Shown piece after piece: positions 5,831-16,314 of a DNA stretch of 29,208 nt. The position numbers were made by a program, and so were the translations under genes. The DNA comes from a virus, in the IMG/VR virus record IMGVR_UViG_3300011253_000519, positions 1-29,208 of that record, one strand, 5' to 3'. The notes beneath the pieces were generated by a model. That model was not told the origin of the DNA. It saw only the letters and a program-made list of their open reading frames with translations, and made no database searches. How positions within the stretch are numbered: the first letter of the stretch is position 1; each line of letters opens with the position of its first letter.

Positions 5831-6176
5831 CAGGAATCACGCAGAACGGGCTATCAGGGTTAGCAATACAATACCCTTTAAGATAAAGCGAGTCATCTCC
5901 AGCAAAGGTATGAACTCCTACTGGGTCAGGCCATACAATATAAGCCTCTAAGCTATCTACTGGCTCGTTTAAGAGCATATCAACAGCGAACATAGTACTT
6001 AGGTCAGTACATACGGGTTCTTCTCCCTCGCTATAAGCAAAGCATATATGCCCAATTTCCATAACCGCCGTTATCTCAGGTATTAAAGTTTGGTTGCCCT
6101 CTTCGTCTGTGTTATAAAGAGTTGGTCTAATGGTCGACCATTGCTCGTCGGTAAATTCGTATTTATTAAATATCAT
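5814..6176 (-). CDS. Hypothetical tail-associated protein (120 aa)
   Basis: This acidic 120-residue protein starts MIFNKYEFTDEQWSTIRPTL and contains EEGNQTLIPEITAVMEIGHI, IVWPDPVGVHTFAGDDSLY and a C-terminal Cys/Pro-rich segment (YCIANPDSPFCVIPDEDLS). It overlaps the first tail fibre gene by 4 nt and the holin by 17 nt. The place between fibre and holin is where small fibre chaperones or tail accessory proteins are often encoded; that role is inferred from position only. I recognise no domain. Confidence 0.65.
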   Translation of the reverse strand: MIFNKYEFTDEQWSTIRPTLYNTDEEGNQTLIPEITAVMEIGHICFAYSEGEEPVCTDLSTMFAVDMLLNEPVDSLEAYIVWPDPVGVHTFAGDDSLYLKGYCIANPDSPFCVIPDEDLS

Positions 6177-7963
6177 ATTGTTGTTAGTGTTGCTAGTTCT
6201 GTATTGCTTAATCTTGTTTTGTAAAGTTGTAGGTTTTTAACGTTGCCTTCGAAAACATCGTTTCCGTCACCTCTGTCAAATCCTAAAGTGTCCAATCCGA
6301 TAGGAACTGCTCCACTTGTATCGCTTGCAATTAACAAACCATTTGCGTAAATCTTAAAATCATTTGCCTTGTATGCAAAAGCAATTTTCGTTCCGCTTGT
6401 TATTGTAGCTATGGTCTGTGTAGTGTTTACAGTAATTGAGCCGCCACTCGCTACTACGAATTGTATTTGCGTACCATTGTATAATAGAGCCATCACTACT
6501 CTATTAGAAGTTCCGCCATCGCTAATGCTGATTTGTCGGTCAGTATTCGCTCCACTAAACGCTGATATCTCAACAAACAAAGTACCCTCCGTTTGTCCTA
6601 TCACATCACTCAAGCCAGTAGTGCTGCTTGTGTCTTGAATCCTAGTCACCGTAGTGCCTGAGGTGGGGATTATCGAAGTAGCGTAGGAGCCAGCCTCGAG
6701 CATTGCTCCGTAAAAATATCCATAATCCGTTACACTTCCTTGATAAGTAGGGTTATAATTAGTTGGGTGAAAAGTTGGGTTTAAAGAATTGCTAAGTCCT
6801 ATTATTACATAAGTTGATGTACCGCTTGCTGATGTTCCAGCAACTGAAGCTCTAACCCATCCGTTACCGTAATCTTCTATTTTTGTCACAACATTGGTAA
6901 GTCCGTTTGAACTATTACCACCAGTTGTTAGACCTTCCGAATCAAAAACTTGCGTATAGCTATTTGAGCCTATTAGTATTTTTATAGAAAAATATCTTCT
7001 AGTTCCCTTTTTGTAAAAAACGCTTGCGGTACTTGTTGCTGATGCGGTAATTGGAGATGTATTATTTATTAGGTGTATACCATTAACCGCAGTTTCTAAA
7101 AATTTATCAGCATTTGTAGTACCGTCGGGGCTTGTCGTATTGTTTGCAGCTATTGTAACTCCATCCTCATCCCACGCCGCATTACTAAAGTCGCTTGATT
7201 GAGTAACCAAATTAGTTCTCTGAGGTTCTAATTTTAAAGACCCGTTTGAATTGTTAAGGTAATCTACTCTCGGTATGTTTAAACGAGTCGTAGTAGGGTA
7301 GTATGTTTTAGCCGTTGAGCCTGAGTTTAGTTGTGCGTCTTGGATGTATATGCTTTCACCAACTGCGTCAGCTAAATAATCGTTATCTGCTGGTGCTGGT
7401 GCAATGTCAATAGCTCCCGTATTGGTAACTACTCCCGTAATACTGCAACGATACCAGCCGCCACCTACGCTTTCAATACTGCCAGTAAGACCACTATTCT
7501 CTGTGCCTACCGTTCCGTTTAGTAAGTTAAACCATACACGCCCCCCCCCAGCTATTGAGTAGGTTCTAACAATTCCAAAATTTACAGTACCAGCCTTCAT
7601 ATAGCAAGATAATGCAATTACTTCGCCCACCGTAAAAGTTTGCGATTGTCTAATTCTTGTTTCTGAACCAATAGTAGTAGACGCAATAACCCAAGCAGAA
7701 GTACCCCCGTCTTTGTCCGCTTGACCCCCAGTTATTGTTGAGTTTCCAACAGACCAAGTAGCATTAAAAGTATTTGATTGCTCTATCAAATTGTACGGCA
7801 CTTCTTCAATAAGCCCTTCAGCGTTTACTATAGTACCCGTACTCGCTCTAGCGAACGTTAATTCATCCGCATAGAAGTTATTATCTACCTTGTGGTATGC
7901 TAGAAGGTTGCCAGACTTTCCTGCCCAATTCCCGTTTCCTAATTGTAAAGATGGTTCTGCCAT
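6173..7963 (-). CDS. Tail fibre / receptor-binding protein 1 (contains a G9 tract)
   Basis: The 596-residue protein has an N-terminal block DELTFARASTGTIVNAEGLI (33-52), the repeated theme NLIEQSNTF...W and NLVTQSSDFSNAAWDEDG, each followed by beta-rich segments ending in GWYRCSI or GWVRASV, and a C-terminal concanavalin/LamG-like domain from about residue 460 (IAFAYKANDFKIYANGLLIA). This is the architecture of phage tail proteins that bind surface glycans. It is related along much of its length to the next upstream gene, so the pair arose by duplication. Codons 139-141 are GGG GGG GGG, a slippage-prone tract. The gene overlaps the following gene by 4 nt and lies 1 nt after the stop of fibre 2. 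Confidence 0.75.
   Translation of the reverse strand: MAEPSLQLGNGNWAGKSGNLLAYHKVDNNFYADELTFARASTGTIVNAEGLIEEVPYNLIEQSNTFNATWSVGNSTITGGQADKDGGTSAWVIASTTIGSETRIRQSQTFTVGEVIALSCYMKAGTVNFGIVRTYSIAGGGRVWFNLLNGTVGTENSGLTGSIESVGGGWYRCSITGVVTNTGAIDIAPAPADNDYLADAVGESIYIQDAQLNSGSTAKTYYPTTTRLNIPRVDYLNNSNGSLKLEPQRTNLVTQSSDFSNAAWDEDGVTIAANNTTSPDGTTNADKFLETAVNGIHLINNTSPITASATSTASVFYKKGTRRYFSIKILIGSNSYTQVFDSEGLTTGGNSSNGLTNVVTKIEDYGNGWVRASVAGTSASGTSTYVIIGLSNSLNPTFHPTNYNPTYQGSVTDYGYFYGAMLEAGSYATSIIPTSGTTVTRIQDTSSTTGLSDVIGQTEGTLFVEISAFSGANTDRQISISDGGTSNRVVMALLYNGTQIQFVVASGGSITVNTTQTIATITSGTKIAFAYKANDFKIYANGLLIASDTSGAVPIGLDTLGFDRGDGNDVFEGNVKNLQLYKTRLSNTELATLTTI
7541..7549 (-). repeat. Homopolymer tract of nine G in fibre 1
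   Basis: Nine consecutive G on the coding strand (C on +) form codons 139-141 of the fibre. In AT-rich DNA this is exceptional; I saw no longer C or G run elsewhere in the window. Adding one G places TAA four codons on (after Ala-Cys-Met-Val). Losing one G gives a stop after six codons (Val-Tyr-Gly-Leu-Thr-Tyr). Either change removes about three quarters of the protein. Confidence 0.85.
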
Positions 7964-7964
7964 A

Positions 7965-9599
7965 TTATAATATTGTGTAGTCTAGTGATAATGCTAATGA
8001 AGTAAAACTCTTGTGTGGTGTGCCCGTTAAATCGGTAAGTTGTTCGTCTGTTAGTGCTGAGGGGAAGACCATTACGTTTTGGCATTTGCCGTAGAAATTT
8101 AAACTTCCATTTCTATCGAAACTTAATTTATCTAATGTATTAGCAGTAAAACTAACTCCCGAAGAATCTGTAGCCACTTCAACACCATTTACCCATAATG
8201 CGAAGTCATTAGCTTTCCATTTAACGGCAATTTTATTAAATTCAGTTTCATTTGATAAAACAAATTCCATATCGGTAGATGCAGCTCCGCTAACTTCTAT
8301 TCTTGTTCTAATTGTATTTGATGTGTCTTTATACCCAAGATAAATAAAATTGTTAACATTAGACTCGTCTATAATATTCATTAACCTATAAGTACCATCA
8401 TTAGATAAAGCAGCTATATTTAAAAACAAAACCCCCTCAGTACTATTAATAATACTACTTAGCCCCGTAGTGCTGCTTGTGTCTGCTATACGAGTGGTAG
8501 CACTTCCGCTTGTTGGGATGTATGAGGTTGGGTAAGAGCCTTGTTCTAGTTGTGCTCCATATAAATCTATACCATCTCCTGACGAGCCAGTACCATTTGA
8601 TGTAGTTATCTCAACTCCTACATTTGTAGATGTCGTTGAACATAAGCCGCTAATAATACACCTATACCAACCGCTCCCCATAGGCTCAATCGTTCCGCTG
8701 CCAGCCGTAACTAAACCCGTCGAAAGATTAAAGGTAGCAGACGCAGACCATAGAGAGTTATTGTTTGAACCGAGACTGATTGATGTCAACTCTGCCGCCT
8801 TTACAAATACACTTGCTGTGTATTGTGAGCCGCTTGACATTGCAATACTTTGAGTTCTTATAAAGTGCTGACCAGTATCGGCGTTTTCTTCATACCGATA
8901 AGCATTGTAAATGCCTTCTGGTGATATTGTTGTGCTAGCTGCTACAGAACCTCTAAACACTTGCCAAGCCGCATTACTAAAGTCCTCCGATTGAGTAACT
9001 AAATTTGTTCTCGTCGGTTCTAAAAGTAGAGACCCACATCCGTTAGAGTAGTCTATGCGAGGGATGTTTGAGGTTGTGTATTCTTTTACGCTTACGTTGT
9101 CTATTGAGCCTATTAAGTTACCTGCACCAGAATTATTTATGTAAATATTCGTAACGTTAGTTGTTGTGCCTATAAATGAATAGCTCCCTACCTCCGAAAA
9201 TAAAGGAGATACTGCACCGTAACAATCAACGACCACGCCGTTAGATGTGCGGTCTACTATGTCAAAGCTAACTATAACTTGAGTGCCTACGTTTAACTCT
9301 AAATAAGGCAAAGATTGAAACATTCTTCCGCTGCCAGTACTTGTTGCTTTGCCGTCAGCTATTGACCAGTTTGCAGATTTAGTCCATGCAGTGTCGCTAG
9401 CGAAATCACCATTAACAACTAATTCACCCCCAATAATAGCAGCCGTCTCTATCAACCCTTCACTATTTGTCCTTGTAGCAGAGCTAGCTCTTGAGAAGGT
9501 TAGGTCTCCCGCTCCACTTACTGGCTTCTGAGCATATATCTTACTCTCTTTGTACCCACTTGGGTAGGCTATTAAACTAGCGTCATCGTATAAACTCAT
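7965..9599 (-). CDS. Tail fibre / receptor-binding protein 2 (paralogue of fibre 1)
   Basis: This 544-residue protein shares its layout with fibre 1: N-terminal GDLTFSRASSATRTNSEGLI, a middle block GSLLLEPTRTNLVTQSEDFS followed by NAAW, then GSYPTSYIPTSGSATTRIAD and SSTTGLSSII, and a C-terminal LamG-like domain (KIAVKWKANDFALWVNGVEV). A beta domain at about 59-170 (GGELVVNGDFASDTAWTKSA...) looks like a carbohydrate-binding module and is absent from fibre 1. It probably binds host surface sugars. It has no G tract. It starts within the stop of a 50-aa gene (4-nt overlap) and ends 1 nt before fibre 1. Confidence 0.75.
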   Translation of the reverse strand: MSLYDDASLIAYPSGYKESKIYAQKPVSGAGDLTFSRASSATRTNSEGLIETAAIIGGELVVNGDFASDTAWTKSANWSIADGKATSTGSGRMFQSLPYLELNVGTQVIVSFDIVDRTSNGVVVDCYGAVSPLFSEVGSYSFIGTTTNVTNIYINNSGAGNLIGSIDNVSVKEYTTSNIPRIDYSNGCGSLLLEPTRTNLVTQSEDFSNAAWQVFRGSVAASTTISPEGIYNAYRYEENADTGQHFIRTQSIAMSSGSQYTASVFVKAAELTSISLGSNNNSLWSASATFNLSTGLVTAGSGTIEPMGSGWYRCIISGLCSTTSTNVGVEITTSNGTGSSGDGIDLYGAQLEQGSYPTSYIPTSGSATTRIADTSSTTGLSSIINSTEGVLFLNIAALSNDGTYRLMNIIDESNVNNFIYLGYKDTSNTIRTRIEVSGAASTDMEFVLSNETEFNKIAVKWKANDFALWVNGVEVATDSSGVSFTANTLDKLSFDRNGSLNFYGKCQNVMVFPSALTDEQLTDLTGTPHKSFTSLALSLDYTIL

Positions 9600-10475: not shown

Positions 10476-10778
10476 TTACCTTTTTGATTGTTTAGCAGTT
10501 TTGGATGCGTTGCAACTTTTGCAAAGTGCTTGAAAATTATTGGTATCCCATTTATCACCGCCCTCAGATACCGGCTTTATGTGATCCGTGTAATATGATG
10601 GCTGTGTACATTGGTCCACCTCACACACAGGGTTTGTCATTTTGTAGGATATTGACAATTTTCGCCAAGCCTGGGTATTGTAGAATTTTAAATCTTCTTG
10701 GTCTTTCAACCAATTAGTTTTTTCTTTTCTAGGGTTGTATTCCTTAATGGAATGAACCCGCTTTGGCATTGTTGGCAT
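10476..10778 (-). CDS. HNH endonuclease
   Basis: This 100-residue protein has an HNH fold signature: FYNTQAWRKL, then CEVDQC, TDHIKPVSEGGDKWDTNN and ALCKSCNASKT. The paired Cys (CxxxxC and CxxC) bind a structural zinc, and His in DHI with Asn in DTNN fit the catalytic motif; the final position is Asn (CNAS) where His is usual. The start MPTMPKRVHS resembles the HNH proteins that in many HK97-like phages lie beside the terminase and help packaging. Here it lies in the tail cluster, about 13 kb from terS. It could be a displaced packaging nuclease or a homing type. It meets the tail tip gene at 10778. Confidence 0.85.
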   Translation of the reverse strand: MPTMPKRVHSIKEYNPRKEKTNWLKDQEDLKFYNTQAWRKLSISYKMTNPVCEVDQCTQPSYYTDHIKPVSEGGDKWDTNNFQALCKSCNASKTAKQSKR

Positions 10779-13366
10779 TACGGGTTGTACTGTGAACCGT
10801 GATGTCTGTATAATAATTCACCATCTCTTACATAAATATTCCGCCCAATAAATCTAATTTCTCCGTGTCTCATATCCTCTAGCGTTGTCGGTGCTGTGGT
10901 TACGAATGTTGTTTGTAATGTATCAAATCTTATTTTTTCAGAAAAATACATTTTTTTAAATCCGTAAACTATACGGCTACCACTTGGGATTTCAAAATCA
11001 AGATCAAAACTTTCAACCGCTAAAGTTGCACCAGCCCCAGTATTATTCAAATCTTGAGTAGATGTAATTTCAAGAAATACATCCCCAGTTTCACTTAATA
11101 TTTGTATTTTATCGCCAATTTTAATATCGCCTTGTGAGTTTATATCTATTGAAAGAATACCCGTGTTAGGCAAAATGTCTGAATCTAATATGCCAACCCC
11201 TCTTTCTAACTCCCTTGACTTTCTTAGTTGGTTTTCAACTTCATCTTGTCCAACGGTAATTCCGCCGCCAATGGTGCTACTAGATAACCCCACTCTTGAA
11301 ATCAACACCTCAAACCATTCCCCACTTATTTCATCTGCTAAATAATTAATGGTTACTTGACTGGCAGCAAAAACAACGTTGTTGTAAGGGATTGTTTGAT
11401 AAGGATAATACACGCCTACAAAGTCTCCCATATACTTTTGCAATGGCTTATATTGCAAACTTACCGCTTCCATAATTCTCAACGAACTTAAATTTCCATT
11501 TAAAGGAAAACTACCATCCCAAAGACTATCAATCCCTAGATCAAAAGCCCCACCATTATAGTTTTTATCTACCGTTAAATTGTTTATTTGTATATCACTA
11601 TTCCCTTCATTGATTATTAAATTGTTCAATTGCAAATCTTTTGTGAATTTTGTGTTGGGATTAGTTGCGGATATACTTTCTATGACATTTTCAATATCTT
11701 CCGGAACAGCAACAACGGTATCTTCTAAGAAAAAAACCAAGGTTCCATTCGATGGTGCTTTTCTAATATTTGTCATCACCAATTCAAGTGCAATTATAAC
11801 GCTTGACATTTCATATGGTATTATTGGAGTTGACATTGTAACACGTTCCTTTGCTACATTATTATTTCCCCGGATTACTAAGGTTTTTTCATAATACTTC
11901 TCTGTGGCTGCCGCCGCATTTTCCCAATATGGTGAAATTGTGCTTGATCCTTTTAAAAACTTATTGCCAGAGGATTCATAAACATACAACCTAACAACTA
12001 TATCAGCATCAAAATTTAACCCCGCCACAGAATTAATATCAAATTGAATATTTATAAATTGGCCAGATGCCAAACCCCCTTTAATATCCCCAACATTTTG
12101 ACTAATGACTGGCAATATTTCTAATAATTCGCTTGCTCCTGAACTATCAAAGTTAACCGCGTGCATTTCTTTTGGCGGCAATTGTCCAATATTAATCAAC
12201 TGCTTGTTTTCACTTTCAATACTGGCTTGTTTAATCCCGTACAAATACCCAAATGTACCACCAGAAAGTGGCGTTAATGTATTGTTGCTGTGTAGATATG
12301 GACCTTGCGAATATGTGCCATTTTTTAAATAGTCTCTGTTTAAAATGTTTATAGTATCGTAATTTCTTATTTGTTGCAGATAATAATATCCATTGGTGTG
12401 GATTAACCTAGTTGACATCATTTCCATAATGCCATAGAGTATATCATAACCGGATAAAAATACACGGTCATTTTTTGCTTTTGATTTCTTCATCAAAAGA
12501 TTTTCGTACATAGATGTGTAGTCTAAAAGACTATCAGTTGCATCAACCCCCGTTACATCTACGGCTTTGTATTCAATACTTTCTTTTAAATAAACGTCAG
12601 TAGATTCCCAAAAACCATCTAATCCATTCAGTTCTAATACATCTAAAATAATGTCTTTTAATTTTTTATTTTGTAGGCTTGTTACATCGCCATTGTATTC
12701 AATATCCTTCAGTCTATCTATTCCATCAATCGTTCTAAACACATATTCACGCGGGCTGCTTTCATTATTCCACTCAATAAGATCCATAACTAAATTGCCA
12801 GCCCATTGTAGTTTATACCCGCTTAAATTACGTTCAACGGTCAACCTTAATTCATCATCATCGCTTTGAAGATACAGATCAATAAAACGGTCAAAAAAAG
12901 CACTATTTACACTCGTTCTATCTTCTTGAACGTTGGAATAAGTTACATCAGTTCTTGATGTCATTAATGGGCTTAATATATAATCATCTGAGTTTTTATA
13001 CTCAGTGACTAAATCGACCACCACCGGTTTTAAAGATGGGATAAAACTAGCTAGATCTGTATTGTCATTTTTTATGGTTGTTTGTGTGCCAAAAGTTTCT
13101 GTGTAGACGGTTATTTCTGTTCTGTTTAACCCCGAATTATAAGTGAATGAACTTATGTTGTCAGAATCTTCAACAATTCCCGTCACCAACAATATAGGTT
13201 GATTAGCTTCTATGTAATCAGTCCAGTCACCGGTGATATAATATACAAGCCCTAAACCCCCAGAAATTGGAGCGTTTAAACCAACGTAGTTTTTGCCGTA
13301 TAATCTAACCCGGTAATCTTCCCCCGCTAAACTATAAAATTGACTTTCAAATATTATGTTGCTCAT
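10778..13366 (-). CDS. Large tail tip / baseplate structural protein
   Basis: The 862-residue protein directly follows the tape measure gene (ATGA overlap), the place of distal tail and tail-associated proteins in siphophages. It starts MSNIIFESQFYSLAGEDYRV and is beta-rich, with blocks such as ILSPLMTSRTDVTYSNVQED, YVFRTIDGIDRLKDIEYNGD and a C-terminal module IRFIGRNIYVRDGELLYRHH. The early part with 'DGIDRLKDI' recalls tail hub proteins that form the ring at the tip. No enzymatic motif was seen, so there is no sign of a wall-degrading domain. The function is inferred from position, size and composition. Confidence 0.75.
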   Translation of the reverse strand: MSNIIFESQFYSLAGEDYRVRLYGKNYVGLNAPISGGLGLVYYITGDWTDYIEANQPILLVTGIVEDSDNISSFTYNSGLNRTEITVYTETFGTQTTIKNDNTDLASFIPSLKPVVVDLVTEYKNSDDYILSPLMTSRTDVTYSNVQEDRTSVNSAFFDRFIDLYLQSDDDELRLTVERNLSGYKLQWAGNLVMDLIEWNNESSPREYVFRTIDGIDRLKDIEYNGDVTSLQNKKLKDIILDVLELNGLDGFWESTDVYLKESIEYKAVDVTGVDATDSLLDYTSMYENLLMKKSKAKNDRVFLSGYDILYGIMEMMSTRLIHTNGYYYLQQIRNYDTINILNRDYLKNGTYSQGPYLHSNNTLTPLSGGTFGYLYGIKQASIESENKQLINIGQLPPKEMHAVNFDSSGASELLEILPVISQNVGDIKGGLASGQFINIQFDINSVAGLNFDADIVVRLYVYESSGNKFLKGSSTISPYWENAAAATEKYYEKTLVIRGNNNVAKERVTMSTPIIPYEMSSVIIALELVMTNIRKAPSNGTLVFFLEDTVVAVPEDIENVIESISATNPNTKFTKDLQLNNLIINEGNSDIQINNLTVDKNYNGGAFDLGIDSLWDGSFPLNGNLSSLRIMEAVSLQYKPLQKYMGDFVGVYYPYQTIPYNNVVFAASQVTINYLADEISGEWFEVLISRVGLSSSTIGGGITVGQDEVENQLRKSRELERGVGILDSDILPNTGILSIDINSQGDIKIGDKIQILSETGDVFLEITSTQDLNNTGAGATLAVESFDLDFEIPSGSRIVYGFKKMYFSEKIRFDTLQTTFVTTAPTTLEDMRHGEIRFIGRNIYVRDGELLYRHHGSQYNP

Positions 13367-15691: not shown

Positions 15692-16030
15692 TTATTTAAA
15701 CCAATTCGGTTTTTCTTCTTTTAACTTTTGCAATTCTTCTTTGCTCCAGCCGTTGCCTTTGGTGCCTTTCGGTGTGCTGATTTTCTCCCATTCAAATTTC
15801 ATCAAATCTGTAGGGCTCTTCATTCTTTTATTCCCCGCCGCTTTTAATGACACAAACGAAACAAACCTAGCAGTCTCCCAATGTACCCGCTCACTTATTT
15901 TTTGGTCCATTTGGTGACCATAGTAAGCATCTAGGATTTCAACCATTGAATAACTTTCTAAGGATGCGGGGCTTTGCTTCAATGCACCCAGGACAAAACC
16001 CCGTATCCAATTAATCAAAGGTTGTTTTAC
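15692..16030 (-). CDS. Tail assembly chaperone, frameshift extension (T part of GT)
   Basis: This frame has no ATG near its start and is open upstream past the end of the G gene. A -1 shift on A AAA AAG (16030-16036) joins them: after Lys-Lys the reading continues Val-Lys-Gln-Pro-Leu-Ile-Asn-Trp. The extension is 112 residues, so the GT fusion is about 207 residues. It contains SMVEILDAYYGHQMDQKISE and ends LKEEKPNWFK. In siphophages, G and GT keep the tape measure soluble and recruit tail tube subunits; this pair lies exactly between the major tail and tape measure genes. A TTG at 16018 could serve as an independent start, but the slippery site makes fusion far more likely. Confidence 0.85.
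   Translation of the reverse strand, partial: VKQPLINWIRGFVLGALKQSPASLESYSMVEILDAYYGHQMDQKISERVHWETARFVSFVSLKAAGNKRMKSPTDLMKFEWEKISTPKGTKGNGWSKEELQKLKEEKPNWFK
15962..16008 (-). promoter_or_regulatory. Stem-loop downstream of the frameshift site
   Basis: In the - strand RNA, the arm GGATACGGGGTTTTG (16008 to 15994) pairs with CAAAGCCCCGCATCC (15976 to 15962) over 15 positions, with one A/C mismatch and one G-U pair, closing a 17-nt loop. It starts 21 nt after the slippery heptamer. This is further than the usual 5-9 nt, but it is a strong structure within a coding region. Confidence 0.7.
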
Positions 16031-16314
16031 TTTTTTGCTTCTGCCTTCAAATTATTCATAGCCGCCATATCTTCTGACATAGCTTCTGTGAATACGTTTA
16101 AAAGGCCCATATCATCATCAATTGCATCAATGATAAAATCCTTTGTAACTTTCTCGCCAGCTGCTTGTAGGCCCGCATAAGCGATTTCTACAATATCAGC
16201 CATTTTAATGTTTTCACCCATTGCGGAAATACTGCTTCCACTTTCCTTTTCAAACAATAATATTGCTTTGAAACCGAATTTAAATTTGTACTCTTTGTTT
16301 TTAATTTTAATCAT
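16027..16314 (-). CDS. Tail assembly chaperone G
   Basis: I place the start at the ATG at 16314 (MIKIKNKEYKFKFGFKAILL). A longer frame from 16344 would encode MPILFLYIKI from terminator sequence and is not credible. The 95-residue protein has a beta hairpin start (KIKNKEYKFKFGFKAILLFE), then helices (ADIVEIAYAGLQAAGEKVTK, GLLNVFTEAMSEDMAAMNNL) as in small chaperones encoded before tape measures. It ends KAEAKK-TAA, and those last codons form the slippery site that allows a fraction of ribosomes to make GT. Its position between the major tail protein and tape measure genes supports the call. Confidence 0.85.
   Translation of the reverse strand: MIKIKNKEYKFKFGFKAILLFEKESGSSISAMGENIKMADIVEIAYAGLQAAGEKVTKDFIIDAIDDDMGLLNVFTEAMSEDMAAMNNLKAEAKK
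16030..16036 (-). promoter_or_regulatory. -1 ribosomal frameshift heptamer A AAA AAG
   Basis: In the frame of G the codons are GCA AAA AAG TAA, so the heptamer A AAA AAG is in the correct phase for a -1 slip and lies directly before the stop. The same heptamer is used in E. coli dnaX. The -1 frame is open from upstream of this point to 15692. A GAAGG stretch lies about 8 nt upstream. Confidence 0.85.

Follow-up and report, generated by a model that had tools for sequence, protein, structure and literature searches.

Two overlapping reading frames on the minus strand of a viral DNA very probably yield, by programmed -1 ribosomal frameshifting, a short tail assembly chaperone, G, and a longer product, GT, from one mRNA. 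The DNA is the IMG/VR virus record IMGVR_UViG_3300011253_000519, analysed over its positions 1 to 29,208; this whole stretch of 29,208 bases is called the window here. Judged from its sequence, the site is a lambda-type G/GT frameshift with a dnaX-like signal, and as such ordinary in kind. The initial annotation, which had proposed a programmed -1 frameshift in the tail chaperones with a dnaX-type heptamer and a downstream stem, is supported in this main point, and several of its details are revised below. The features of the locus are as follows.

16796-16386, minus strand: major tail protein.
16027..16314, minus strand: G gene, zero-frame tail assembly chaperone of 95 aa, assigned by Phage_TAC_12, PHROG and gene order.
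16030..16036, minus strand: slippery heptamer A AAA AAG, in phase and directly before the G stop.
16027..16029, minus strand: zero-frame stop TAA (TAG in four site variants, CAA in L004).
16025..16029, minus strand: spacer of 5 nt separating the heptamer from the base of the hairpin (5-7 nt in relatives).
15940..16024, minus strand: full imperfect hairpin of about 85 nt, putative 3' frameshift stimulator, with base helix 16024-16020/15944-15940.
15962..16008, minus strand: upper arm of the hairpin, a 15-bp imperfect stem with a 17-nt loop.
15692..16036, minus strand: T frame (-1), 114 aa as read from the heptamer, matching PHROG 16333 (E 7.7e-07); presumed second part of a GT fusion.
15687-13363, minus strand: tape measure protein.

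Both overlapping frames thus sit between the genes for the major tail (tail tube) protein and the tape measure protein, as in lambda-type G/GT pairs, and the order on the minus strand is major tail protein, G, T, tape measure. G, which runs from the ATG at 16314 to the TAA at 16029-16027, belongs to a tail assembly chaperone family: it matches Phage_TAC_12 in Pfam (E 2.1e-06; 28.6 bits against a cut-off of 26.2) and a tail chaperone group in PHROG (E 4.2e-08). The host is presumably a member of the Bacteroidota, because of the matches of the tail tube and tape measure proteins, a single relative in a Bacteroidetes MAG and the lack of Shine-Dalgarno (SD) motifs. The tail module also contains a small HNH endonuclease gene (window 10476-10778, minus strand). 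An 862-aa protein encoded directly after the tape measure gene (window 10778-13366, minus strand) has no PHROG and no significant Pfam match and is probably a tail protein of unknown family, and two adjacent proteins of 596 and 544 aa (window 6173-9599, minus strand) both match the tail protein family PHROG 5939 and are likely a duplication. Two published phages were set aside as comparisons: in Flavobacterium phage hattifnatt the similarity covers part of the tape measure protein, and the gene preceding that of the tape measure has no hit to a TAC family; the "frameshift" in the paper on Polaribacter phage P12002L is an annotation setting only.

The 3' end of G reads GCA GAA GCA AAA AAG TAA, which places a heptamer of the form X XXY YYZ in the zero-frame phase right before the stop, as the initial annotation had seen. 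A tblastn search with G against 50,697 phage records gave no match, and the related loci were therefore taken from searches of viral contigs; the close comparative sequences all come from one group, in which G is at least about 69% identical to that of the window. The unbiased count of the heptamer is that among the 80 loci retrieved by the G protein alone: GCA AAA AAG ends G in 79 of them, and the sole exception, L002, is cut by the contig end. The last three codons are also fixed in the pooled sets of 66 distinct G genes and 51 distinct sites, there because the heptamer was required for inclusion. Across these 66 genes the other conserved alanine columns use three or four codons each, and most conserved lysine columns use two. 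The codon after the heptamer is TAA in 46 of the 51 distinct site sequences, TAG in four and CAA in one; in that last case (L004) the G stop is changed, the heptamer is kept and the next zero-frame stop lies four codons on. A scan of genome contigs with G found no match, and the same scan with T found one Bacteroidetes MAG contig (L152), a distant relative with a weaker hairpin signal (z -2.4) farther downstream; it was left aside because its G is truncated and its join, C AAA AAA C at L152:60-90, has no canonical heptamer.

The downstream frame was likewise correctly described as lying in the -1 phase, open past the heptamer and without an ATG near its start. It is open to 15692 and its upstream stop is a TAA at 16054-16052, and its overlap with G before the heptamer is therefore only short. 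L063 belongs to a clade whose T frame carries a TGA at -13, three bases upstream of the heptamer. The frame is thus open for only 3 nt ahead of it, which leaves the heptamer as the sole place for a -1 shift. Conservation of the T protein starts at the join, at Lys-Lys-Val, and continues through Pro-Leu and Ile-Arg-Gly-Phe-Val before any methionine is reached, so that T is a -1-phase frame without a conserved start of its own, as in lambda-type pairs.

The minimum-energy fold of the RNA downstream of the heptamer is one hairpin, from 16024 to 15940, with -33.2 kcal/mol and a z of -2.95 against dinucleotide shuffles. The imperfect 15-bp stem that had been proposed 21 nt after the heptamer, closing a 17-nt loop, is real: at 16008-15994/15976-15962, the single unpaired position of 15 is an A.C mismatch, and one of the 14 pairs is a G.U. 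It is not the distant element with a longer spacer that it was taken for, but the upper arm of the larger hairpin, whose base helix, CAACC/GGUUG in the window, begins 5 nt after the heptamer; across all clades this distance is 5-7 nt, a short spacing like that of the dnaX-type stem-loop. RNAalifold recovered the same three-part hairpin from a gap-free alignment of 20 distinct sequences. In the named structure 90.6% of the cells are paired, seven pairs are changed on both sides and the covariation score is 0.293, as against 38.7-52.5% of cells, 0-3 such pairs and scores of 0.037-0.140 when the partners are slid by 1-3 columns; the structure was partly derived from the sequences scored for pairing, so the count of paired cells favours the unslid version. 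The co-variation in related phages that the initial annotation had proposed as a check was found, most clearly at column pair 44-88 (G-C to C-G) and at column pair 53-79 (G-C, U-G, U-A, C-G).

The hairpin lies inside T, where protein conservation could mimic RNA conservation, and it was therefore compared with synonymous recodings at the codon usage of the window. All 26 representatives share the overall fold and are more stable than their own recodings (z -2.4 to -6.3, mean -3.9). Other windows of the phage give a mean recoding z of -0.32 (sd 1.0, minimum -2.98), so that values close to -3 also occur elsewhere, and it is the agreement of all representatives that carries the argument. On a tree built from the flanking sequences, ten branches carry coordinated paired changes; slid partners give 0-3 such branches, and ten was not reached in any of 200 permutations. 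At the hairpin several loci that are otherwise nearly identical differ by an entire block, so recombination of site blocks probably lowers the number of independent coordinated changes among these. Loss of the heptamer or the stem in relatives, which the initial annotation had named as evidence against its reading, was confined to the hairpin of a single contig: the heptamer is always kept, and in L042 a 45-nt in-frame deletion just after it in T removes the upper arm, which is either a natural exception or a jump of the assembly or the polymerase across the hairpin. Taken together, the compared sequences show the hairpin RNA to be under selection.

Other elements suggested for this signal have fared less well. 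A GAAGG stretch is present upstream of the heptamer in the window but is not conserved, an SD-like 4-mer being missing from 11 of 20 distinct upstream sequences; the upstream SD-like stimulator of dnaX-type signals has no conserved counterpart here, and the resemblance to dnaX, which had been claimed for the whole set with a longer spacer, is therefore one of heptamer and hairpin only. SD pairing had also been called weak in the Bacteroidota. Of 20 start sites in the window, not one has an SD motif, as is expected for this phylum. On the other hand, a survey of Bacteroidia genomes found SD-assisted frameshifting in prfB in 72% of them (PMC8710568), and since prfB relies on SD pairing so commonly there, a lack of SD use cannot be assumed. 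The pseudoknot with the 17-nt loop, also put forward as a check, was dropped as a stimulator: between the apical loop and the sequence downstream, no pairing at a conserved position was seen across clades, and none at all in L005, whose site is identical to that of the window. The window has no Rfam match at gathering score, and a covariance model of the element (R1) gave strong matches only at known sites and none in the lineage of Bacteroides phages described next.

The tail tube protein of the window matches those of Bacteroides phages F1, F2 and F4 at 32%, and hhalign shows homology to the window for G and T of these phages alike (E 1.2e-06 and 3.9e-06). In these phages T is joined in the -1 phase at a run of nine A (zero frame GAA AAA AAA AGT TAG). 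The A9 is kept in 12 of 12 further contigs with a readable join, and also in the more distant L168 and L169; examples from Bacteroides phages and gut contigs are L153:3740-3765 and L155-L169. No hairpin was found next to the run, the z against recodings within 15 nt of it being -0.07 to +3.4 in five contigs, and the RNA downstream of the A9 in L153 is not stabilised (z +0.6). Because of the A9 run and the lack of stable downstream RNA, this lineage and that of the window suggest two ways to the same fusion with different modes of slippage, and slippage of the polymerase on the A9 run is a reasonable guess. We speculate, as an idea that is possible but short of probable, that homologous chaperone pairs of Bacteroidota phages have switched between slippage on a conserved A9, by the polymerase or by the ribosome free of structure, and ribosomal slippage on A6G, with a large hairpin downstream as its driver in place of the SD stimulator, in hosts whose anti-SD is occluded.

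Could the same kind of polymerase slippage account for the window itself, with an A added in the A6 run and a normal ribosome then reading T? Nine is a run length at which polymerase slippage is known, and homologous genes carry a conserved A9 at the same join. The window group, however, always has exactly A6 followed by G, in the phase of a heptamer, and keeps a 3' hairpin that polymerase slippage does not need, and slippage on A runs has been reported for n above 7 (PMC3711429), all of which makes transcriptional slippage very unlikely here. Less likely still is a T translated independently, from TTG 16018, the start named by the initial annotation, or from an internal ATG. The window and most relatives have the TTG, yet it is TTA in three variants (L029, L047 and L049) and lies inside the hairpin; at T codon 31 an ATG is kept at about 92%, but it is a Leu codon in L007 and a start there would drop the conserved I-R-G-F-V-L-G. 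An error of sequencing or a pseudogene as the source of the frame change can practically be dismissed, for although homopolymer runs attract errors, about 80 contigs assembled separately, and homologous genes from phage isolates too, show the same -1 phase.

The alternative that deserves most attention grants the shift at the heptamer but gives the hairpin another role, for instance occluding internal T starts or setting how stable the mRNA is. It would fit a hairpin that lies within coding sequence, and distant homologues do have the -1 join without one. The position of its base in all clades is nevertheless at a typical stimulator distance from the heptamer (PMC5009743), and T has no conserved start to occlude, so that we regard this as improbable, though less so than the readings above.

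Under the favoured reading, programmed -1 frameshifting with a stimulatory hairpin, translation would end at the TAA for most ribosomes, which release G. The hairpin 5 nt downstream of the heptamer would hold up a minority; these would slip back by one base while their two Lys tRNAs sit on A AAA AAG, and continue into T. The predicted GT fusion has about 207 residues, with Lys-Lys-Val where G meets T. If lambda is a guide, G and GT presumably act as chaperones, and a fixed ratio of the two would serve to bring the tail tube protein onto the tape measure. Directly observed are the phase, the invariance of the heptamer and the conservation of the T protein from the join on; that the shift takes place, with what efficiency, and that the hairpin stimulates it are what we infer from them and from the conserved RNA.

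Frameshifted tail chaperones have long been known (Xu et al. 2004, cited in PMC8008677 and PMC3711429; review PMC5009743). The literature searched, which left most subscription journals and the 2004 survey outside its scope, gave no earlier description of the RNA element, which appears to be undescribed. With it comes a well-supported -1 signal of defined structure, from phages belonging to a phylum that rarely uses SD pairing, with natural variants numerous enough for tests to be designed without guesswork. Gene calling is affected as well: T of Bacteroides phage F1 is annotated as a separate hypothetical protein.

With lambda G/GT and its many counterparts in siphophages the locus shares gene order, overlapping -1 frames, a shift at the end of G and an expected excess of G over GT. 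It differs in its heptamer, A AAA AAG here as against G GGA AAG in the account of lambda given in PMC7618472, and in its long conserved 3' hairpin, a feature that the material on lambda at hand does not describe. A_AAA_AAG is the shift site of E. coli dnaX, and spacers of 5-9 nt are found in many of the -1 signals that have been studied (PMC5009743); what the window shares with dnaX is this heptamer and a nearby 3' stem-loop, but it has no conserved upstream SD element and its hairpin is longer, at about 85 nt. The short product here is the zero-frame one, as it is in a minority of bacterial dnaX genes (PMC5009743). In layout the hairpin resembles the HIV-1 gag-pol signal as outlined in PMC7618472, with a lower stem near the slip site, a stronger upper stem and unpaired bases between them; sequence and host are unrelated, and the resemblance is one of layout only. 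Bacteroides phages F1, F2 and F4 have homologous G and T in the same gene order and -1 phase, but A9 instead of A6G and no downstream hairpin: a natural comparison, within homologous genes, of what may be transcriptional and ribosomal slippage serving the same need.
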